A DNA stretch of 20,750 nt, taken from positions 1-20,750 of the IMG/VR virus record IMGVR_UViG_3300027973_000258; one strand, given 5' to 3'. The notes beneath the pieces were generated by a model that did not search any database, was not told the DNA's origin, and saw nothing but the letters and a program-made list of their open reading frames with translations. The translations under genes and the position numbers were made by a program. This DNA is from a virus. Of this stretch, positions 2,819 through 20,349 are shown piece after piece (position 1 is the first letter of the stretch; the number at the start of each line of letters is the position of its first letter).

Positions 2819-3661
2819 ATGGCTATTGGATTATCTAATGCTTTTGTAACGCTCTTTGATGCCGAAGTTAAACAGGCTTACCAAGGTAAGGCAGAATTAG
2901 TTGGTGCTGTTAGACAAAGACGCGGTGTTGAAGGCTCAGTAGTAAAATTTCCTAAAGTAGGCAAAGGTGTTGCTACTTTAAGAATCCCACAAACAGACGT
3001 AACACCATTAAATGCAACATGGTCACAAGTAACTGCTACGCTTGCAGATTGGAATGCAGCAGAATATTCTGACATTTTTATGCAACAAAAAGTAAACTTT
3101 GACGAAAGACAAGAGTTAGTGCAATTAGTAGCTAACGCTATTGGTAGACGTCAAGACCAAATGATTCTTGATGCACTTGCTGCTTCATCAACATCATTAA
3201 CAGTGTCTAACGACATTGGCACTACAGACTCTAACCTTAACGTAGCTAAACTACGTGAAGCTAAACGTCTATTAGACAAAAACAATGTTCCACCAATGGA
3301 TCGCCATATTGTTTTACATGGCAATGGCTTGGCTTCATTACTTTCAGAAACAGCAGTAACTTCTTCTGACTTTAATACAGTTAAAGCACTTGTAGCTGGC
3401 GAAATCAATACATTCTTAGGTTTCACATTCCATGTATTGGGTGATCGTTCAGAAGGTGGTTTAGCAATTGATGGCTCTTTAGACAGAACAATGTTCGCGT
3501 TCCATAAAGATGCTGTTGGTTACGCAGAAGGCATAGCTCCTCGCACAGAAATCAATTATGTTCCAGAAAAAACATCATTCCTTGTGAATGCAATTTTCTC
3601 TGCTACAGCAACAACAATTGATGCTGAGGGTATCGTTCAACTCACTTGCCGTGAAACTTAA
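2819..3661 (+). CDS. Major capsid protein
   Basis: This 280-aa protein probably builds the icosahedral shell and is expected to have the HK97 fold. An N-terminal segment (MAIGLSNAFVTLFDAEVKQAY) leads into a region rich in beta strands. The Asp/Glu-rich long helix region NFDERQELVQLVANAIGRRQDQMILDAL (in pieces, about residues 95-125) resembles the spine helix. The C-terminal part contains AVGYAEGIAPRTEINYVPEK, characteristic of podovirus capsid proteins in which a viral particle protein contacts the P-domain. It is shorter than T7 gp10A (about 345 aa). A strong Shine-Dalgarno (AGGAGA) with ideal spacing, placed after a terminator and structured leader, fits high expression. Its position after the scaffold gene supports the assignment. 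No slippery frameshift extension was seen. Confidence 0.9.
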   Translation: MAIGLSNAFVTLFDAEVKQAYQGKAELVGAVRQRRGVEGSVVKFPKVGKGVATLRIPQTDVTPLNATWSQVTATLADWNAAEYSDIFMQQKVNFDERQELVQLVANAIGRRQDQMILDALAASSTSLTVSNDIGTTDSNLNVAKLREAKRLLDKNNVPPMDRHIVLHGNGLASLLSETAVTSSDFNTVKALVAGEINTFLGFTFHVLGDRSEGGLAIDGSLDRTMFAFHKDAVGYAEGIAPRTEINYVPEKTSFLVNAIFSATATTIDAEGIVQLTCRET

Positions 3662-4659: not shown

Positions 4660-6662
4660 TGGCTCGTTTTGTTACAGTCCAAACAAACTTCACTACAGGC
4701 GAACTAGATCCACTATTAAGAGCGCGTATTGATTTAAAGTCTTACGAGAATGCATTAGAAACAGCTCAAAATGTATTCTGTCAGCCACAAGGTGGAATCA
4801 CACGTAGATCTGGCACTCGCTATATTAACTCACTTCCAAACACTAGCACAGATTCTGCTGCTAATGGTGTTCGTCTAGTTGCATTTGAATTTTCAACATC
4901 AGATAGTTATATGCTTTGCTTTACGCATAATCGTGCATATATATATAAAAATGGTGCATTAATTACCAATATTAATGGCACAGGAAATTCATATCTATCT
5001 ACATCTGGCGTTAGTTTAACATCAGCTAAATTAAATGAAATGTGTTGGACTCAATCTGCTGATACATTAATAATTACGCATGAAGATATTAATCCAGTTA
5101 AGATTGTTCGTGGCGCATCTGATTCATTGTGGACTGCATCAGCATTAACTTTTGATAGTATTCCTAAATATGCATTTACATTAGCATATAGTAATCCAGC
5201 TGGAACATTAACACCATCAGCCATATCTGGAAAAATTAAAGTTACAGCATCTACTGGAACTCCATTTTCTGCTGCATCAGTAGGTCAATATATTAATATT
5301 ACGCCACAAGGTCGTGCAAAAATAATCCAATATTTATCTGGCACAGAAGTTAATGTAGTAACAGAATTTCCATTCTTTGATACTACCGCTGTTGCTACTG
5401 GAAATTGGGAAATTGAATCTGGATATGAAAGTGTTTGGTCATCAACAAAAGGATGGCCAAGAACAGTATCTTTCCATCAAGGTCGTTTATATTTTGGAGG
5501 ATCTAAGTCAAGGCCATCTACTATATGGGGATCTGTTGTAGGGTTATTTTTCCAATTTGAACCAACAGAAGGGCTAGATGACGATGCTTTAGAAGCTACG
5601 TTAGATACTAATACGTTCAATGCCATTACAGATATTATTTCTGGACGAGATCTTACTATCTTTACAACTGGTGGTGAGTTCTATGTGCCACAAAATGGTC
5701 TAGAACCTATTACTCCATTATCATTCTTTGTGCAGTCTACTAGCCGTAATGGAAGTAAACCTGGCATACGAGTGCAACAACTTGAAGGTGGTGTTATATT
5801 TGTGCAAAGACAAGGTAAGTCATTATCTGAAATTGCATATTCTGATACACAGCTTACTTATGTTACATCAAAGATATCTCTATTATCTGGCCATCTATTA
5901 AAAACACCTAAACGCATGGCATTAAGACGTGCAGTAAATACAGATGAAAATGATTTACTTCTTATTGTAAATGGAAGTGATGGGACATTAGCATCATACT
6001 CATTAATGAGATCACAAAATGTTATAGCTCCATCAGAACTTGTAACATCAGAAGGATCATTTATTGATATTGGTATAGATCTTACTACAATTTATGCTGT
6101 TATTAAAAGAACTATATCTGGCACAGACCAATATTATGTAGAAAAAGTAGAGCAAGGATTATTAACAGATAGTGCTAAAACTGGTGGTGCAGCAGCATCA
6201 GTATCTATGAGCCATTTAGTTGGTAAAGAAGTTAATGTTATTCTTGATGGTATTGTGCAAGCTAACCAAACAGTAGCAGCCGGTGGAACAGTAACATTTC
6301 CTAGATCATCTACAATTTCTTATGAAGTAGGATTGCCAATTACAGTTCAAGCTACTACAATGCCTATAGATTTAAAAATTCAAACTGGAACACGTTTAGG
6401 CTTTAAAAAACGTATTGTTGAAGTTAATGCATTGGTATTAGAAACACAGAATATGGTAGTAAATGGCATTGAAGTCCCATTTAGATCATTTGATACACCA
6501 TTAACATTAGATGCAGATGTTCCAGAATTTACAGGGACTAAAGTATTGCACGGAATTCTAGGGTATAGTAATGAAGCTAAAATTACTATCACTCAGAGCG
6601 CACCATTAAAGTTTACCTTATTAGGTATGGAATATAAAGTAGCAGTTCACCAGGGGACATAG
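4659..6662 (+). CDS. Tail tubular protein B (T7 gp12-like nozzle)
   Basis: This 667-aa protein probably forms the hexameric nozzle of the short tail. The N-terminus is diagnostic: FTTGELDPLLRARIDLKSY followed by ENALETAQNVFCQPQGGITRRSGTRY (in pieces, residues 12-57), the first beta-propeller element of the T7 gp12 family. Repeated short aromatic/beta motifs follow, such as KGWPRTVSFHQGRLYFGGSK (about residues 263-282) and the FTTGGEFYVPQNG strand pair (about 332-344). The C-terminal half is beta-rich and ends in a platform-like domain. The start is coupled to the tail tubular A stop (TAATG), and only one base separates its stop from the next start. Length is somewhat below that of T7 gp12 (794 aa). 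Confidence 0.93.
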   Translation: MARFVTVQTNFTTGELDPLLRARIDLKSYENALETAQNVFCQPQGGITRRSGTRYINSLPNTSTDSAANGVRLVAFEFSTSDSYMLCFTHNRAYIYKNGALITNINGTGNSYLSTSGVSLTSAKLNEMCWTQSADTLIITHEDINPVKIVRGASDSLWTASALTFDSIPKYAFTLAYSNPAGTLTPSAISGKIKVTASTGTPFSAASVGQYINITPQGRAKIIQYLSGTEVNVVTEFPFFDTTAVATGNWEIESGYESVWSSTKGWPRTVSFHQGRLYFGGSKSRPSTIWGSVVGLFFQFEPTEGLDDDALEATLDTNTFNAITDIISGRDLTIFTTGGEFYVPQNGLEPITPLSFFVQSTSRNGSKPGIRVQQLEGGVIFVQRQGKSLSEIAYSDTQLTYVTSKISLLSGHLLKTPKRMALRRAVNTDENDLLLIVNGSDGTLASYSLMRSQNVIAPSELVTSEGSFIDIGIDLTTIYAVIKRTISGTDQYYVEKVEQGLLTDSAKTGGAAASVSMSHLVGKEVNVILDGIVQANQTVAAGGTVTFPRSSTISYEVGLPITVQATTMPIDLKIQTGTRLGFKKRIVEVNALVLETQNMVVNGIEVPFRSFDTPLTLDADVPEFTGTKVLHGILGYSNEAKITITQSAPLKFTLLGMEYKVAVHQGT

Positions 6663-14487: not shown

Positions 14488-16434
14488 ATGGCTGATTATG
14501 CAATAACGAACGTAGCAAGACGAGTAGTATACACAGGATCTGCTGGTGTAGGCCCTTATGCCTTTACATTCCCTGTATTAATAAATACAGATATCGCAGT
14601 ATATAAAAATACTACACTTCTTACTTTAACGACAGACTACACTGTAACTATTAGCGGAACTACTGGTCAAGGATCAGTCACATTAGTATCAGCTGCTACA
14701 GGCACTGATCGTATTACTATTGTAGGTGCAAGATCTATTCAAAGATCAACAGATTTCGTAACTGGTGGTGACTTCTTTGCTAACACACTTAATACAGAAT
14801 TAGATTCAGAAACAATCTTTATTCAACAAATTGCTGAAACAGCAGAGCGTGGACTTAAAGCGCCTGTAACAGATCCAACGTCTATTAACATGACGTTACC
14901 ATTCAATACTACACGTGCTAACAAATTCCTATCATTCGATGCTGATGGTAATCCTACAGTAAACAATGCAGTAGGAACATATAGAGGTAATTGGGCTGCA
15001 TCTACAGCATATATTGTTTATGACATTATTAAAGACACATCTAACAATAACATCTATATCTGCTTAACTGCACATACATCTACAGGCGCACAACCTATAT
15101 CAAGTAATGCTGACGTAGCTAAATGGTCACTTCTTGTAGACGCTGCTTCTGCTACAACATCTGCAACGAATGCTGCTTCTAGTGCAAGCGCTGCTTCAAC
15201 AAGCGCTACTAACGCTGCTTCTTCTGCAAGTGCTGCATCTACATCAGCAAGTAATGCTTCTACTAGTGCATCGACTGCTACAACACAGGCTTCTAACGCA
15301 TCTACTAGTGCTACCAATGCTGCATCAAGCGCATCTTCTGCTTCTAGCTCTGCATCATCAGCCACTAGCTCTGCATCTACAGCGACTACACAAGCAAGTA
15401 ACGCAAACACATCTGCTACTAACGCTGCAAGTTCAGCATCAGCTGCTTCAACAAGTGCAAGCAATGCTTCTACATCAGCTTCTAATGCAAGCACATCAGC
15501 TTCTGCTGCTTCTACAAGTGCCACTGCTGCTTCTGGTTCAGCTTCAACTGCAACGACTCAAGCATCTAATGCATCAACTTCTGCTACTAATGCAGCAACA
15601 TCTGCAAGTAATGCTGCTACTGCACAAACTGCTGCTGAGGCTGCACGTGATGCAACACTAGCTGCATATGATTCATTTGATGATAGATATCTAGGTGCTA
15701 AATCATCTAATCCAACAGTAGACAATGATGGCAATGCGCTACTTGCTGGTGCTTTATATTACAATACAGTTGCTGTAGAGATGCGTTTATACACTGGATC
15801 AGCATGGGTAGCTGCCTATGTATCTGGCTCTGGATTCTTAGCTGCTGCTAATAACTTATCTGATCTAGCTAGTAATACCACAGCAAGAACAAACTTAGGC
15901 TTAGGCACTGTAGCTACAGAAAATACTGTCCCTGTAGCAAAAGGTGGTACTGGTAATGCTACAGCTACAGCTTATGCTGTTCAATGTGGTGGTACAACCT
16001 CTACAGGAGCGCATCAATCACTAGCTTCAGTAGGAACAACAGGACAAGTATTAACATCTAATGGTGCGTCTGCATTACCTACATTCCAAACTCCTACCGC
16101 AGTCACACCGGCTGCTGTATCAGATCAAGCTAACTCATCAACAGGATACTTTGATCTACCAGTTGGAACAACAGCACAAAGACCAGGATCACCAACATCT
16201 GGTAACATGCGTTACAATACTAGCACAACTAGCTTTGAAGGATACAATGGCACAGCATGGGGATCTATCGGTGGAGGCGCATCTGCTGGTGGTGCAATCT
16301 ATGAGAACACATTAACAATCAGCGCTAACTACACATTAACAACAAGCACCAATGGATTATCAGTTGGCCCAATTACAGTCGCTTCTGGCGCAACAGTCAC
16401 AGTTCCTAGCGGTGCTCGCTGGGTAGTCTTATAA
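14488..16434 (+). CDS. Main tail fibre protein, T7 gp17-type N-terminus
   Basis: A 648-aa trimeric fibre expected to bind the host surface. Residues 1-150 (ADYAITNVARRVVYTGSAG through LNTELDSETIFIQQIAETAERGLK) match the T7 gp17 attachment domain that docks on the tail. Residues 165-220 (GNWAASTAYIVYDIIKD, IYICLTAHTSTG, KWSLLVD) look like a CBM5/12-type carbohydrate-binding module. Residues 225-378 are 22 strict heptads with Ala at positions 2 and 5. Then comes a fibre segment with a YLGAKSSNPTVDNDG knob, NLSDLASNTTARTNLGLG and VAKGGTGN motifs common in phage fibres, and a short beta C-terminus (SVGPITVASGATVTVPSGAR). An AAAGGA at 14476-14481 precedes the start. Three separate adhesin genes follow, so this fibre may carry them distally. 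Confidence 0.9.
   Translation: MADYAITNVARRVVYTGSAGVGPYAFTFPVLINTDIAVYKNTTLLTLTTDYTVTISGTTGQGSVTLVSAATGTDRITIVGARSIQRSTDFVTGGDFFANTLNTELDSETIFIQQIAETAERGLKAPVTDPTSINMTLPFNTTRANKFLSFDADGNPTVNNAVGTYRGNWAASTAYIVYDIIKDTSNNNIYICLTAHTSTGAQPISSNADVAKWSLLVDAASATTSATNAASSASAASTSATNAASSASAASTSASNASTSASTATTQASNASTSATNAASSASSASSSASSATSSASTATTQASNANTSATNAASSASAASTSASNASTSASNASTSASAASTSATAASGSASTATTQASNASTSATNAATSASNAATAQTAAEAARDATLAAYDSFDDRYLGAKSSNPTVDNDGNALLAGALYYNTVAVEMRLYTGSAWVAAYVSGSGFLAAANNLSDLASNTTARTNLGLGTVATENTVPVAKGGTGNATATAYAVQCGGTTSTGAHQSLASVGTTGQVLTSNGASALPTFQTPTAVTPAAVSDQANSSTGYFDLPVGTTAQRPGSPTSGNMRYNTSTTSFEGYNGTAWGSIGGGASAGGAIYENTLTISANYTLTTSTNGLSVGPITVASGATVTVPSGARWVVL
15160..15621 (+). repeat. 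22 tandem alanine-heptad repeats inside tail fibre gene
   Basis: Twenty-two consecutive 21-base units encode seven-residue repeats such as SATNAAS, SASAAST, SASTATT and QASNAST. Alanine occupies positions 2 and 5 in every unit, the a/d spacing of a coiled coil. A three-unit block (SASTATT-QASNAST-SATNAAS and near copies) occurs three times. Synonymous codons vary strongly between units, so DNA identity is lower than protein identity. Confidence 0.9.
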
Positions 16435-16444
16435 GGGGAAATAA

Positions 16445-16987
16445 ATGGCATCATCAATTGACGCAAGCACAAGTGGAGCAGGGGGAGTCATAACGACTGC
16501 TGATAACACAGGTATATTGCAATTAAAATCTGGTGGCACAACGATTGCTACAATATCATCTACTGGTATTACAACACAAGTAGGCTCTCCAGCGTTTAGT
16601 GCTTATCAAGGTTCTGCTCAAACATTATCAACATCAACAACCACTAAAATTACTTTTGATACTGAAGAATTTGATACTAACTCAAATTTTGCGTCTAGTC
16701 GTTTTACACCAACTGTAACTGGATATTATCAAGTAACTGGTGGAATACAAGTAAATGCTACTGCTTGTGTTATTAGTTTATTTTTATACAAAAACGGCTC
16801 TTTATATAAATTTCTTGTTACTTCTAATAATTCAAATTTATCGGGTGCTTATGGAACAAGTTTAGTGTATTTAAATGGTTCTACTGATTATGTAGAAATT
16901 TATGCTTCAGTAAGTGTTGGTCAAGCTTTGAATGTAAATGGAACAGCAAGTAGTTATTTTAATGGTGCAATGATTAGGAGCGCATAA
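16445..16987 (+). CDS. C1q-like adhesin, first copy
   Basis: A 180-aa protein of two parts. Residues 1-50 are a Gly/Thr/Ile-rich beta segment (MASSIDASTSGAGG, ILQLKSGGTTIATISSTGI) of the kind used as connector in fibre-tip proteins. Residues 50-180 are a C1q/TNF-like jelly roll: PAFSAYQGSAQ, TFDTEEFDT, SRFTPTVTGYYQVTGGI, FLYKNGS, YLNGSTDYVEIY and a final FNGAMIRSA strand. Such domains trimerise and bind ligands. An AAGGGG (16433-16438) precedes the ATG. The stop overlaps the next start by one base. It is related to the second copy downstream and probably forms part of the fibre tip or a satellite adhesin; the exact receptor is unknown. Confidence 0.85.
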   Translation: MASSIDASTSGAGGVITTADNTGILQLKSGGTTIATISSTGITTQVGSPAFSAYQGSAQTLSTSTTTKITFDTEEFDTNSNFASSRFTPTVTGYYQVTGGIQVNATACVISLFLYKNGSLYKFLVTSNNSNLSGAYGTSLVYLNGSTDYVEIYASVSVGQALNVNGTASSYFNGAMIRSA

Positions 16988-17006
16988 TGACTTTATACGA
17001 AAAAAT
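16983..17006 (+). repeat. 24-base direct repeat, copy 1 (C1q/small-gene junction)
   Basis: This 24-base stretch covers the stop of the first C1q-like gene and the start of the small gene. It is identical to 18353-18376 at the same junction of the second module. It marks the boundary of the duplicated segment and could be a recombination point. Confidence 0.85.
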
Positions 17007-17151
17007 TAAACAACTATACCCAGATTTAACTGACAATGATTTTTTTACTGTTATTCGTTTACAAAACGACTCTGATGGTCGTGGAGATTACATAGTTAAA
17101 TGGGAACATCCTACACTAGCTAAACCAACAGAGGAGCAATTAGGTGGCTAA
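16987..17151 (+). CDS. Small XkdW-like fibre accessory protein, copy 1
   Basis: A 54-aa protein starting MTLYEKIKQLYP, with a central DFFTVIRLQNDSDGRGDYIV segment and ending KWEHPTLAKPTEEQLGG. The KW....L.KPTEEQL ending is typical of XkdW-like and tail-fibre-assembly small proteins that follow phage fibre genes, so an accessory or chaperone role for the preceding adhesin is likely. It starts by TAATG overlap with the C1q-like gene. Codons for Thr-Glu-Glu-Gln contain GAGGAG (17131-17136), which serves as ribosome binding site for the overlapping GTG start of the next gene. It is 83% identical (44 of 53 residues) to copy 2. Confidence 0.75.
   Translation: MTLYEKIKQLYPDLTDNDFFTVIRLQNDSDGRGDYIVKWEHPTLAKPTEEQLGG
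17131..17146 (+). promoter_or_regulatory. Ribosome binding site deciding GTG start of HNH gene
   Basis: GAGGAG (17131-17136) lies seven bases before a GTG at 17144 and inside the coding sequence of the preceding small gene. The residues that follow the GTG (AKFVKGQMPWNKG) begin directly with the expected NUMOD3-like motif. This supports the GTG as the start, with no usable ATG nearby. Confidence 0.7.
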
Positions 17152-17779
17152 GTTTGTTAAAGGACAAATGCCTTGGAATAAAGGTATTCCTGTAAGCGAA
17201 GAAGTGAAGGCTAAAATCAGTGCTAAAAATACTGGTAAAAAACATACGCCTGAAACCCAAGCTAAAATAAATCTTAACCTTACTGAAGGTGGTAAAGCTA
17301 CTAGGTTTGTAAAAGGACAAGTGGCACATAATAAAGGAATTAAATGTCCTCGTTATACTACAGAAGAAAAACTAGCTAAACGAAAAGCATGGCGTAAGGC
17401 TAATAAAGAAGTTCTGTATCAAAAAGGATTAGAATGGAAACGTGCTAATCCAGAAAAAGTAGCTAAGACTGCTAAGAAATCTAGGATAAATAATTCTGCA
17501 AGAGTAAATGCTGCCAATAATAAAAGACGTGCAGATAAATTAAATAGAACTCCTAAGTGGACTACTAAAGATGATTTATGGTTAATTAAAGAAGCACATG
17601 AACTAGCAGTATTAAGAACTAAACTATTTGGATTTGATTGGCACGTTGACCATATTATTCCATTAAAAGGCAAAACTGTTTCTGGACTTCATGTTCTAAA
17701 CAACTTACAAGTTATAGAAGGAAAACTAAATATTATGAAAAATAACAAATTTGAAGGAGAAACATTTTGTCATCAGTAA
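17144..17779 (+). CDS. HNH homing endonuclease with NUMOD3-like repeats
   Basis: A 211-aa, very basic free-standing homing endonuclease. The N-terminus has two FVKGQ..(W/H)NKG motifs (residues 4-14 and about 55-66) of the NUMOD3 DNA-binding type. A Lys/Arg-rich linker (about 75-135) follows. The HNH domain is at the C-terminus: WHVDHIIPLKG with D169 and H170, then LHVLNNLQVI with H183, N186 and N187, then NNKFE. It starts at GTG, overlapping the small upstream gene by eight bases, and its last 13 bases overlap the TTG start of the second C1q-like gene. It would cut DNA lacking the element and promote its own spread. Flanking genes are intact, so it is neither an intron nor an intein. Confidence 0.88.
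   Translation: MAKFVKGQMPWNKGIPVSEEVKAKISAKNTGKKHTPETQAKINLNLTEGGKATRFVKGQVAHNKGIKCPRYTTEEKLAKRKAWRKANKEVLYQKGLEWKRANPEKVAKTAKKSRINNSARVNAANNKRRADKLNRTPKWTTKDDLWLIKEAHELAVLRTKLFGFDWHVDHIIPLKGKTVSGLHVLNNLQVIEGKLNIMKNNKFEGETFCHQ
17754..17769 (+). promoter_or_regulatory. Ribosome binding site deciding TTG start of second C1q-like gene
   Basis: AAGGAGA (17754-17760) inside the end of the HNH gene lies six bases before a TTG at 17767. The frame from this TTG (SSVIIAGDTSG) has the typical beginning of such fibre proteins. An in-frame ATG is not available close by, so TTG is the likely start. Confidence 0.65.
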
Positions 17780-18357
17780 TCATAGCTGGGGATACCTCTG
17801 GCACAGTAACACTTGCAGCACCAGCAGTAGCAGGAACAACAACATTAACTTTGCCAGCGACAACAGGGACAGTAATTACAAACACAGCAGGAACCGTTAC
17901 GCAAACAATGCTTGCTGCTGGCGTAGTTGGCAATGGACCAGCGTTTTTTGTTTATGCTTCTGCAAATCAATCTATTGCTAATAATACGGCAGTAAAAATT
18001 CAGTTAAACACAGAAATATTTGATACCGCAAGTGCTTTTGATAGTACTACAAACTATAGATTTACTCCTACTGTAGCTGGTTATTACCAAATAAATTCAA
18101 ATGTTTGGTATGGCTCTGCTCCAGCAAACGGAAGTTGCCAAGCAAAAATATACAAAAACGGCTCAGAATTTACAAGTGGATTATGTGCAGTAGTTAGTGG
18201 TGCTTTTTCAGGCGCATCAGCTTCTTCAGTAATATTTTTAAATGGCTCTACTGATTATGTTGAGTTATATACCGCACAAAGCACAGGCACAACTTATTCA
18301 ACTAATGGCGGTTCTGCATTTATTACAATGAGTGGTTCATTGGTAAGGACTTCATAA
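17767..18357 (+). CDS. C1q-like adhesin, second copy
   Basis: A 196-aa paralogue of the first C1q-like adhesin. The N-terminal part (SSVIIAGDTSGTVTLAAPA, TTTLTLPATTGTV) is a fibre-associated beta segment unlike that of copy 1. The C-terminal jelly roll (about residues 57-196) matches copy 1 in order: PAFFVYASANQS, NTEIFDT, YRFTPTVAGYYQIN, KIYKNGS, FLNGSTDYVELY and a final SGSLVRTS strand. It has eight residues more around the middle loops. Start is TTG with a strong AAGGAG, overlapping the HNH gene by 13 bases. Its stop overlaps the next small gene (TAATG). Differences concentrate in loops, as expected if the two copies recognise different surface ligands. Confidence 0.84.
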   Translation: MSSVIIAGDTSGTVTLAAPAVAGTTTLTLPATTGTVITNTAGTVTQTMLAAGVVGNGPAFFVYASANQSIANNTAVKIQLNTEIFDTASAFDSTTNYRFTPTVAGYYQINSNVWYGSAPANGSCQAKIYKNGSEFTSGLCAVVSGAFSGASASSVIFLNGSTDYVELYTAQSTGTTYSTNGGSAFITMSGSLVRTS

Positions 18358-18376
18358 TGACTTTATACGAAAAAAT
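18353..18376 (+). repeat. 24-base direct repeat, copy 2 (C1q/small-gene junction)
   Basis: Identical to 16983-17006, at the same gene junction in the second module. A second shared block of 18 bases is at 17121-17138 and 18491-18508, at the ends of the two small genes. Confidence 0.85.
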
Positions 18377-18518
18377 CAAATCACTATACCCACAGTTAGA
18401 AGATAAAGATTTTATGACTGTTATAAGATTACAAAACGATAGTGATGGTAAAGGTGACTACATAGCTAAATGGGAACACCCAACACTACCTAAACCAACA
18501 GAGGAGCAGTTAGCATAG
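18357..18518 (+). CDS. Small XkdW-like fibre accessory protein, copy 2
   Basis: A 53-aa protein (MTLYEKIKSLYPQLEDKDF ... KWEHPTLPKPTEEQLA), differing from copy 1 at nine of 53 aligned residues. The conserved core VIRLQNDSDG and the KWEHPTL.KPTEEQL tail are unchanged, which indicates selection on the protein. It starts by TAATG overlap with the second C1q-like gene and is followed after 12 bases by the GIY-YIG gene. Likely role is as for copy 1: accessory or chaperone to the adjacent adhesin. Which adhesin each copy serves is unknown. Confidence 0.75.
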   Translation: MTLYEKIKSLYPQLEDKDFMTVIRLQNDSDGKGDYIAKWEHPTLPKPTEEQLA

Positions 18519-18524
18519 TATAAT
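18519..18524 (+). promoter_or_regulatory. Perfect TATAAT just before the GIY-YIG gene, possible leaderless start
   Basis: A perfect -10 hexamer ends seven bases before the ATG at 18531, so initiation would fall at or next to the A of the ATG. No Shine-Dalgarno is suitably placed; GAGGAG at 18501-18506 is 24 bases away. No good -35 was found (CAACAG at 17-base spacing), so this may be chance. Confidence 0.35.
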
Positions 18525-18530
18525 AACATT

Positions 18531-19148
18531 ATGTTTTATGTATATGAACACATCCGTAACGATACCAATGCCATCTTTTATGTAGGCAAAGGTAAAGCTA
18601 ATCGTGCTTATACCACTAAAAATAGAAATAAGCATTGGCATAATGTAGTAAACAAAGCACAAGGATTTACAGTAAGGTTTGTAGTAAAAGATGTAGACGA
18701 AGAACTAGCTTATCTTGCTGAAGAAGAAAGAATAGACCAGCTAAAAATACTAGGCATTAAATTAGCTAATATAAATGCTGGTGGTGCTGGTGTAGGTTCT
18801 GGTGACAAACATCCTATGTGGGGTAAACCACATCCACAAAGAGGTTCTAAAAGACCTTATGGTAAGTATAAACGTGGTGCTGATAATCCTAGATATGGCA
18901 AACCAAGTCCAATGCGTGGAATACCAAAACCAAAAGGAAAAGATAGTCCTTTATATGGTAGACCAAGACCTGAAGGTGGTGGTAAACCTTCTCAAGCTGT
19001 AATAGCAACAGATAAAGATGGTAACAAGTTTACATTCGCTTCATTAACTGAAGCTGGTAAAGCTGTTAATTCAGATAGACATAGTATAAAGAAATGGTGC
19101 GAAATGAATAAATTTTACAAAGGTTTTAACTGGGAGTTTTCTAAATGA
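18531..19148 (+). CDS. GIY-YIG homing endonuclease with NUMOD3 and NUMOD1-like motifs
   Basis: A 205-aa free-standing homing endonuclease. The GIY-YIG-type nuclease is at residues 2-95: FYVYEHI as the GIY element, FYVGKGKANRAY with Y17, G19 and R25 as the YIG and catalytic arginine, and the acidic AEEERI (E64-E66) supplying the metal-binding glutamate. Residues 90-155 hold three NUMOD3 copies (KHPMWGKPHPQRG, DNPRYGKPSPMRG, DSPLYGRPRPEGG). Residues 155-205 form a NUMOD1/IENR1-like helix-turn-helix (TFASLTEAGKAVNSDRHSIKKWC ending in YKGFNWEF). The stop overlaps the next fibre gene by ATGA. It sits in the same place in module 2 as the HNH enzyme in module 1, yet belongs to an unrelated nuclease family. 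Confidence 0.88.
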   Translation: MFYVYEHIRNDTNAIFYVGKGKANRAYTTKNRNKHWHNVVNKAQGFTVRFVVKDVDEELAYLAEEERIDQLKILGIKLANINAGGAGVGSGDKHPMWGKPHPQRGSKRPYGKYKRGADNPRYGKPSPMRGIPKPKGKDSPLYGRPRPEGGGKPSQAVIATDKDGNKFTFASLTEAGKAVNSDRHSIKKWCEMNKFYKGFNWEFSK

Positions 19149-20188
19149 CAATGACAATTAGTGGTAGTTCTGGATTAATATTCCCAGATGGCTCTGGACA
19201 AGAAACAGGTATAGGACGTAACCGTATTATAAATGGTGCTATGGTTATTGACCAAAGATATGCTGGTGCTGCTGGAAGTGCTGCAACCAATACAGCTCCT
19301 TACGGTGTAGATAGATGGCAAGTATATGGCGTAGTTAATTCTAAATTTACATATCAGCAAAATGCAGGTTCAGTAACTCCGCCTGCAGGATTTACTAATT
19401 ATTTTGGTATTACATCATCATCTGCTTATACTCCAGGTGCATCGGAAAGATTTTTAGTAAATCAATATATGGAAGGATTTAATACATACGATTTAGATTT
19501 TGGTAAATCTACTGCTAAAACTGTTACTCTTTCATTTTGGGTATATAGTTCTTTAACAGGAAGTTTTGGTGGTGCTTTGCAAAATTATGCAAATACTAGG
19601 TCTTATCCATTTAGCTATACTGTTTCTTCTGCAAATACTTGGACTCAAATTTCAATTACTATTCCAGGTGATACTTCTGGAACTTGGGTAGGTGCATCTA
19701 GTGCTGGTTCAATGGGTTTAGTATTTAGTCTTGGTTCTGGTTCTACATATCAAGGAACAGTTAATACTTGGGCTTCTGCAAATTATGTTCAACCCACAGG
19801 TTCAGTATCAGTCGTAGGCACTAACGGAGCTACATTCTACATCACAGGTGTCCAACTAGAAGTAGGCTCAACAGCAACACCATTTGAACGCAGACTTTAT
19901 GGTCAAGAGTTTATTAACTGTCAAAGGTATTATCAATTTGCAGAGCCAGGAATTGTTTTTTCTGTAACAGCAAGTAATCTTTATGGAGTAACTGCACAAT
20001 ATAATGTAGAAATGAGGGCTACACCTACAGCAACATGGGTATCAAATGTCAGTGCCTATGGATTTGCAGTAACTGCTGGAACAGTTGCTGTAGTTGATAA
20101 TAGAGCTGTTATGGTTTATAAAGCAGCCACTGCGTCAATAGGGGGAGCAAACTTCCAAGACAAATATTCTTTATCAGCGGAGTTATAA
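19145..20188 (+). CDS. Fibre-tip / receptor-binding protein, third adhesin
   Basis: A 347-aa beta-rich protein of a type common as the last fibre gene in aquatic phages. After MTMTISGSSGLIFPDGS comes the hallmark RNRIINGAMVIDQR (residues 25-38), then YGVDRW. A carbohydrate-binding-like sandwich follows (TLSFWVYSSLTGSFGG, WTQISITIPGDTSGTW). The conserved FYITGVQLEVGSTATPFERR (about 230-249) leads to YGQEFINCQRYYQ, and a variable C-terminal domain covers about 265-347. It starts by ATGA overlap with the GIY-YIG gene and ends by TAATG overlap with the next small gene. Base composition jumps inside the gene, near 19793-19900. It is probably the main receptor-recognition piece or a distal fibre subunit; ligand unknown. 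Confidence 0.85.
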   Translation: MTMTISGSSGLIFPDGSGQETGIGRNRIINGAMVIDQRYAGAAGSAATNTAPYGVDRWQVYGVVNSKFTYQQNAGSVTPPAGFTNYFGITSSSAYTPGASERFLVNQYMEGFNTYDLDFGKSTAKTVTLSFWVYSSLTGSFGGALQNYANTRSYPFSYTVSSANTWTQISITIPGDTSGTWVGASSAGSMGLVFSLGSGSTYQGTVNTWASANYVQPTGSVSVVGTNGATFYITGVQLEVGSTATPFERRLYGQEFINCQRYYQFAEPGIVFSVTASNLYGVTAQYNVEMRATPTATWVSNVSAYGFAVTAGTVAVVDNRAVMVYKAATASIGGANFQDKYSLSAEL

Positions 20189-20349
20189 TGTATAAACAAT
20201 GTAAAAAATTAGATAAAACTATAGATCAAGCAGTTATCAAAATTTCTGATGGTGCATATATACCATTTGACCCAGCTAACACAGACTACCAAGCCTACCT
20301 TAAATGGGTAAGCGAAGGCAATACGCCAGAACAGGCTGATAATGTCTAA
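20188..20349 (+). CDS. Small tail-fibre-associated protein (third module)
   Basis: A 53-aa protein starting MYKQCKKLDKTIDQAVIKI, with the segment IPFDPANTDYQAYLKWVSEGNTPEQAD. The F(D)PANTDYQAYL.W..EGNTPE pattern is common in very short proteins encoded behind phage fibre genes and is thought to belong to assembly or accessory factors. It starts by TAATG overlap with the third adhesin (GGAG eight bases upstream) and its last eight bases overlap the next gene. It takes the place that the XkdW-like proteins occupy in modules 1 and 2 but is not visibly homologous to them. Confidence 0.75.
   Translation: MYKQCKKLDKTIDQAVIKISDGAYIPFDPANTDYQAYLKWVSEGNTPEQADNV

Follow-up and report, generated by a model that had tools for sequence, protein, structure and literature searches.

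Free-standing homing endonucleases that may re-head adhesin genes in a tail fibre-linked gene row of a virus from metagenomic data

We analysed a 20,750-base viral fragment (IMG/VR record IMGVR_UViG_3300027973_000258, positions 1 to 20,750; hereafter "the window"), in which a row of three adhesin genes, each followed by a gene for a small protein, is interrupted by two homing endonuclease genes (HEGs). The row occupies positions 16445-20349, entirely on the + strand, in the order A1-S1-HNH-A2-S2-GIY-A3-S3 (A, adhesin; S, small protein), with overlaps of a few bases between most neighbours. We give a probability of roughly two in three to the reading that these HEGs spread together with a replacement adhesin 5′ end, re-heading adhesins and not moving whole receptor-binding cassettes. 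On the sequence comparisons described here, it is probable that the GIY-YIG element cuts within adhesin genes and supplies a replacement 5′ end, so that the anchor changes and the receptor-binding body stays; for the HNH lineage the same behaviour is plausible.

In the proposed mechanism, the row behind the tail fibre would consist of slots in which a conserved 5′ end (the anchor) is combined with an exchangeable receptor-binding body and usually an exchangeable small chaperone. Such a row would be independent of HEGs and would have been invaded by two free-standing lineages, the HNH lineage faithful to A2-type starts and the GIY-YIG lineage to A3-type starts. The mobile unit would be a HEG, carrying a ribosome-binding site and start codon in its last codons, plus about 30-50 codons of adhesin anchor. 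We infer that the GIY-YIG enzyme would make its double-strand break at the conserved DNA coding for NRIINGAM.IDQRNAGAS, within the adhesin gene, and that transfer would run from element to recipient; because the cut would fall inside the gene at this motif, the element would have to bring a working 5′ end. Repair on the right side by homology in the NRIINGAM motif would retain the resident body, and the left side would be joined at some other place, so that the recipient's former 5′ end would in some cases be left stranded ahead of the HEG. Adhesin bodies would be reshuffled largely by recombination independent of HEGs.

Endonuclease lineages and the adhesin starts behind them

The HNH protein (gene at 17144..17779, +) has matches to NUMOD3 and HNH, with "endonuclease VII" as its top PHROG (1.2e-15), and the GIY protein (18531..19148, +) has matches to a GIY-YIG model and NUMOD1, with "homing endonuclease" as its top PHROG (1.9e-13) and NUMOD3-like repeats as judged by eye. 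The Pfam scores of window proteins for NUMOD3, HNH, GIY-YIG, NUMOD1 and C1q are all under Pfam's own cut-offs; the endonuclease calls were therefore made from the PHROG matches and from conserved residues. The latter form invariant blocks, WHVDHIIPL..N in the HNH family and YVYEH..FYVGKGK..R in the GIY-YIG family, some of whose residues we take to be catalytic. Both genes are free-standing: the flanking open reading frames (ORFs) are complete, the HEGs are present in some related phages and absent from others, and an empty HNH site exists in one of these (L009). The median ratio of non-synonymous to synonymous substitution rates (dN/dS) was 0.20 for GIY (from the 51 of 66 pairs whose dS exceeded 0.05) and 0.35 for HNH (28 pairs), and this purifying selection suggests that the HEGs are active now or were so recently. 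The HNH gene of the window is a mosaic. Its first third is 94-97% identical to L015 and L016 (97% to L015) and its last third 99% identical to L017, with a middle third only 75-78% identical to each of the three (75% to L015). The single weak match given by PADLOC was to PD-T4-3 and covered 32 residues of the GIY protein.

A preliminary description of the window had proposed three adhesin/small-protein modules punctuated by two endonucleases, unrelated in family, free-standing and at equivalent junctions. This layout is borne out by the ORFs and their positions, by the domain and PHROG matches, and by a sister contig (IMGVR_UViG_3300009160_001131) which carries the same array at 99.7% identity over 4738 nucleotides (nt). 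The description had also taken the repeating unit to be adhesin-small protein-endonuclease. That grouping has to be changed, since the adhesin with which each nuclease is associated is the downstream one. We compared the window with 407 loci (L numbers), which were retrieved by the HEGs, by other scans and as named phages. Matches to the HNH protein at ≥ 250 bits came from 9 rows representing 8 distinct phages, and all 8 phages have an A2-type start downstream; only HEGs ≥ 65% identical to the window HNH were counted as this lineage. An A3-type start lies downstream of the GIY match in 8/8 rows at ≥ 250 bits and in 8/10 at 125-250 bits (16/18 in total). Among distant homologues (60 bits upwards) the 77 GIY rows include 1 A3-type start, 71 other genes and 5 rows without a downstream ORF, and the 57 HNH rows include 0 A2-type starts, 53 other genes and 4 rows without a downstream ORF. 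Upstream of the HEGs the genes vary, and may be an XkdW gene, an S3-type gene, a small gene of 75-99 residues or an adhesin. A shared target at the conserved XkdW gene end, which precedes both HEGs in the window, was also considered, and was dropped because of these many kinds of upstream gene at other loci. Distant HNH genes among L351-L385 directly precede other phage genes; the start of the next gene often overlaps the end of the HEG, and HNH genes that resemble one another are paired with similar downstream genes. This way of life may be common to the HNH family as a whole.

The 3′ ends of the HEGs resemble translation initiation regions. In all eight HNH genes, AGGAG starts 12 bases ahead of the adhesin start codon (TTG or GTG), within the last HEG codons; in the window the 3′ end of the HNH gene contains both AGGAG and the TTG start of A2 (17767..18357, +), whose A2-type 5′ end is SSVIIAGDTSGTVTL. 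In all fifteen GIY genes examined, GGAG (10 genes) or AGGA (5 genes) starts 12 or 10 bases ahead of the adhesin ATG, which overlaps the GIY stop as ATGA in 15/15 cases. The GIY gene of the window contains GGGAG at its 3′ end and overlaps in this manner the start of A3 (19145..20188, +), which has an A3-type 5′ end with the motif NRIINGAMVIDQR from codon 26. At its other side a spacer (18519..18530, +) precedes the GIY gene, and the S2 end plus spacer, GTTAGCATAGTATAAT, likewise stands before the GIY gene in L018, L047, L050 and L051. Where the HNH gene is missing (L009), the S1 end would supply what the HEG 3′ end would supply elsewhere. The HEG 3′ end would thus provide the ribosome-binding site and start codon of the adhesin, which would be translated from the HEG-borne site. 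The adhesin ORF whose start is overlapped by the HEG is complete, which would argue against a self-splicing intron.

The blocks of high identity which run from HEG into adhesin are short. We defined a sharp 5′ block as ≥ 93% identity followed by under 80%, and compared 15 GIY-headed adhesins (a hand-made list) in 105 pairs. Sharp blocks were found in 17 pairs, with the change point at codons 32-51; the NRIINGAM motif starts at codon 29 or 30. The 17 pairs fall into three groups (L052/L053/L054/L056/L061/L273, L018/L051 and L047/L050). Within L052, L053, L054 and L056 nucleotide identity is 96-100% in the HEG (by thirds) and 94-99% over the first 108 nt of the adhesin, and the bodies and upstream DNA are near background (about 73% in this pairwise table, which has free end gaps). 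For the HNH gene, a conversion-type block at 17572..17841 (+), comprising the HNH 3′ end and the first ~75 nt of A2, is 96-100% identical to L017 in 45-nt bins and drops to 47-53% within ~150 nt on each side, which is near the background of about 50% when end gaps are penalised; L017 has another backbone. By sequence comparison, these blocks look like co-conversion tracts.

The preliminary description had suggested that homing moves whole receptor-binding cassettes, with co-conversion of the flanking adhesin, so that the two HEGs would bracket and mobilise entire adhesin-chaperone units between phages. Its co-conversion part agrees with blocks that run from HEG into adhesin, and related HEGs do occur in other backbones: L018 carries both in the same order in a different backbone. 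HEG-islands with interchangeable HEG classes are also known from the accessible text of PMC10448857. However, the blocks stop after some 30-50 codons, the bodies behind the same HEG differ, the A2 body and small gene between the two HEGs are not those of the window in L018, and rows with the same order occur without HEGs. The sampled loci contradict the movement of whole cassettes, and we consider it quite improbable.

Stranded 5′ ends and the weighing of alternatives

Re-heading by insertion within a gene would at times leave the old 5′ end behind, and such remnants were sought in the 130 nt upstream of the slot for 15 GIY-occupied slots, 8 HNH-occupied slots and 267 other slots. A truncated and different adhesin 5′ end stands ahead of the GIY gene in 5 of the 15 GIY slots (L048, L196, L214, L246 and L272), the window not being among them. 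None was found at the 267 other slots, where three initial matches (L157, L251 and L260) proved to be the genes' own starts (Fisher: P = 2e-7; against the 76 A3-type slots alone, P = 6e-5). Neither of the two HEG lineages is present at ≥ 60 bits in these control slots, which are nevertheless not purely HEG-free: about 11 of them (L014, L015, L060, L111, L117, L181, L203, L206, L209, L222 and L223) have HEGs or HEG-like genes of other families, and there the stretch searched fell inside the HEG. The L181 call was made by an in-house hidden Markov model (HMM) alone; the label "HNH" which the in-house models gave to the HEGs of L014, L058, L117, L203 and L223 was wrong, these being of GIY-YIG or NUMOD3/phrog_314 types.

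The stranded ends resemble intact adhesin 5′ ends found elsewhere: MSLLLDGSNGVTFNDSSLQGAAA, followed by a stop, in L048 (91% identical), MPITLNGDSGITTPTYGGTATSEYLVPVTA, followed by a stop, in L272 (77%), MAITLDGTSGITSPTYGGATTAEYSVPVT.. in L246 (97%), MAVTLNGTTGLVFNDGSAQDTAATGFGY.. in L196 (75%) and MTVAVSGESITFDDSSVQTTAATGFANE, followed by a stop, in L214 (96%). Over 23-30 aligned residues, all five intact counterparts continue into the NRIINGAM motif and the stranded copies end 1-6 codons short of it; in each locus the intact adhesin behind the HEG starts differently from the stranded end. A replacement gene end was probably brought in and the old one left as a truncated copy. A shorter stranded end in L206 was seen by eye only and is outside the 5/15. 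L018 has a shorter scar, ATGACAATGACACTAGAGCAGTTAGCATAG, in which an A3-type start is fused to an XkdW gene end, the upstream gene of L018 not being XkdW. The mirror image of 5′ replacement is found in two HNH-type HEGs (PHROG matches) at the 3′ end of an S3 gene (L018:7423-8040 and L048:7856-8506), each with a C-terminus formed by a stranded tail of S3 (HTPEQAD and EGNTPLPAD).

Several observations weigh against re-heading by homing. The window itself has no stranded 5′ end, and none was found in the 130 nt upstream of the 8 HNH-occupied slots, so that for the HNH lineage the model draws on the blocks and the start overlap. Most GIY pairs (88/105) are without a sharp block. L061 and L273 share the 5′ end of the L052-L056 group behind a different GIY gene (~51% amino acid identity to that of the window), and the adhesin 5′ end and the HEG are therefore separable. 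Between L017 and L019, compared in the same way as the L052-L056 group, the HNH genes are 88-97% identical by thirds and the A2 5′ ends only 78%, not far above the 73% background of that comparison, a counter-example to co-conversion. Of the pairs without a detected HEG, 15/1768 also combine a shared 5′ end with divergent bodies; since these show the same pattern, body shuffling does not need HEGs. NGAM, and not NGDM, is found in 14/15 GIY-headed adhesins against 48/87 other motifs (p = 0.004), a bias which is ambiguous, as it would fit target resistance or mere descent. Finally, many contigs are short metagenomic assemblies and all counts ignore relatedness.

Some of these points would be expected if the HEGs were passengers, with ordinary homologous recombination at conserved motifs swapping the anchors and junction HEGs riding along: the 15/1768 pairs without a detected HEG, and the finding of one 5′ end behind two different GIY genes. 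Such a passenger role does not account for stranded 5′ ends being found only ahead of HEGs (5/15 against 0/267), nor for the purifying selection on the HEGs. Block-type pairs are also commoner among GIY-headed genes (7/45, from 10 such genes recognised) than among pairs without a detected HEG, though the GIY sample was chosen by HEG similarity. We judge the passenger explanation unlikely, and re-heading remains our preferred reading.

Adhesin rows and their proteins

The adhesin row exists independently of the nucleases, as judged from the loci compared. The window carries a podovirus-type morphogenesis operon upstream of the row, consisting of a head-tail connector gene (Pfam 9e-101), a gene with a weak, sub-cut-off resemblance to nozzle genes, a virion structural gene named after its annotated relatives, and the tail fibre gene (14488..16434, +) ahead of slot 1. 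The tail fibre has tail/tail fibre PHROG matches, an Ala/Ser/Thr-rich middle and the C-terminus ..RWVVL, and its N-terminal ~218 residues are 82-97% identical in L003-L006, L008 and L009. A long Ala/Ser/Thr/Asn-rich stretch of this gene occupies 15150-16013; two sister contigs (behind L002 and L046) terminate on either side of it, perhaps because of an assembly break.

The virion structural protein of the window retrieved eight relatives, five of which (L003, L004, L006, L008 and L009) span the interval from the tail fibre to a small conserved gene. The contents of this interval differ among the five, which may lack any extra adhesin there or have one long adhesin, genes resembling 2-oxoglutarate oxygenases, or three modules. 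The three-module row of L009 consists of A1, S1, an adhesin with an A2-type 5′ end and another body, a different small gene, and a third adhesin, again with a small gene of its own, and has no endonuclease; at the empty HNH junction the S1 end abuts the A2 start as TTAGCATGAGTTCAG. Further three-module rows without a HEG were found in L138, L239 and the cultured Methylophilales phages MEP401 and MEP402. Across 92 distinct loci with at least two typed starts, A3 follows A2 in 55/56 pairs and A1 in 39/39, and the order of A1 and A2 varies (39 one way, 28 the other).

Among loci retrieved by the adhesin start itself, a HEG lies immediately upstream in at least 1/78 A2-type and at least 7/54 A3-type loci. 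These are lower bounds, counting only HEGs recognised by in-house HMMs or motifs, and the scans covered the best 80 of at least 511 (A2-type) and the best 80 of at least 525 (A3-type) confirmed candidates. The preliminary description had named modules duplicated without any link to HEGs as evidence against its proposal, and this is partly what we see, in HEG-free three-module rows, rare HEGs and body shuffling in pairs without a detected HEG. Such sporadic occurrence would also suit neutral late insertion of HEGs into gene junctions, leaving adhesins unaffected beyond the carriage of a ribosome-binding site, as would the 1-nt indel which disrupts the HNH frame in the sister contig and the fact that the seg and mob genes of T4 usually lodge between genes (in the accessible part of PMC2988022). 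Against this, the GIY gene seems in five cases to have been inserted within the 5′ coding part of an adhesin, each time together with a new 5′ end, and each HEG lineage is bound to one anchor type; we regard neutral insertion as very improbable.

HEGs of other families, of GIY-YIG types and some of them below the Pfam cut-off, also occupy row junctions, before A1-type starts in L015, L117 and L223, before A2-type starts in MEP301, L060 and L209, and before A3-type starts in L111 and L222. The relation between slot and HEG is therefore not one-to-one.

As the preliminary description had stated, the bodies of A1 (16445..16987, +) and A2 are both C1q-like. For A1 the Pfam C1q match is below cut-off (E 0.0067); its family profile matches solved C1q-type chains (best E 1.4e-4), and its predicted fold gives Foldseek template modelling (TM) scores mostly of 0.65-0.78 to C1q targets, with a cyanophage portal-tail protein as the top match and a mean predicted local distance difference test (pLDDT) score of 73. 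The model thus predicts a C1q/TNF-type fold. The A1 copy in the HEG-free L009 is 89% identical over 149 residues. A3 is not C1q-like: it has a PHROG tail fiber match (2.6e-52) and a predicted CBM4-like core (mean pLDDT 64, with unreliable ends).

The small proteins S1 (16987..17151, +) and S2 (18357..18518, +) belong to the XkdW family, both lying above the PF09636 cut-off (28.5 and 37.1 bits against 24.6). They had been described as near-identical, which overstates an identity of 83% (44/53). S1 also matches a PHROG for tail fiber assembly protein (0.0063) and is likely to be a tail fibre assembly chaperone. S3 (20188..20349, +) is unrelated to S1 and S2 and belongs to phrog_20370.

Other genes were seen within rows of this kind. 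In L008 (4188-5945, with similar genes in L004:7177-8926), two 2OG-Fe(II) oxygenase-like genes, one above and one below the Pfam cut-off, and a gene of 225 residues replace the extra adhesins; a role in modification of the virion or the host surface is possible. The 225-residue gene has no Pfam or PHROG match and, we presume, resembles a sulfotransferase. L112 has a gene between adhesins of the array (4823-5578) with a weak, sub-cut-off match to Anp1 glycosyltransferases, and in L110 a gene of 198 residues without a Pfam match (3065-3661) separates the slot-1 adhesin from the small gene that follows.

Relation to known homing systems

The behaviour proposed here shares features with several known systems. 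Like the free-standing HEGs of T4-type phages (seg and mob genes; intronless homing), described in the accessible part of PMC2988022, the window elements are GIY-YIG and HNH genes which lie between conserved genes and not in introns, and which show co-conversion of their flanks. According to the same text, free-standing enzymes have intergenic genes and cut at a distance of hundreds to thousands of bp from them; in contrast, the GIY cut proposed here would be ~75-150 bp from the HEG and inside the adhesin, and the HEG 3′ end contains the RBS-like site and start of the adhesin. HEGs of different classes which bracket essential phage genes have been termed HEG-islands (Barth, Dunham and Seed 2023, PMC10448857), and in the available portion of that paper different classes likewise stand at corresponding places beside essential genes, tail genes included. 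The cargo of these islands is reported there as > 90% identical between otherwise dissimilar phages, whereas here only the HEG and the adhesin 5′ end are common, and the bracketed cargo is not nearly identical between the window and L018, the sole other locus with both HEGs.

PMC7315562 describes introns with an N-terminal duplication, in which a mobile element likewise adds a foreign N-terminal portion to a host gene and leaves the remainder of that gene in place. Those elements are mitochondrial introns, whereas here free-standing HEGs in phage operons have the adhesin start built in. For the HNH endonucleases of Skunavirus, HEG phylogeny likewise follows insertion location and marker exclusion was seen experimentally (PMC12724721, in part); adhesin rows and replaced gene ends, which are features here, are not spoken of in that part of the text. 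The variable islands of cryoconite phages include HEGs as well as C1q receptor-binding genes located behind tail fibres (PMC7468147, in part). Among the matches listed by our searches of open-licence PubMed Central papers, we found no description of a free-standing HEG re-heading phage adhesins. These comparisons suggest that re-heading of adhesins by homing is a variant of known HEG behaviour.

Adhesins determine the host range of phages. HEGs specific to an anchor could home into any motif-bearing adhesin and, as anchor type corresponds to slot, re-assign bodies to another slot, tail type or phage lineage; that they are kept partly for host-range diversification, and not purely as selfish DNA, is a tentative suggestion, which we hold to be rather unlikely. 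If re-heading is true, a free-standing HEG can invade the inside of a gene without an intron or intein, leaving the gene unbroken and a readable scar behind, and the order of stranded 5′ end, HEG and complete gene would be a signature that can be searched for in sequence data.

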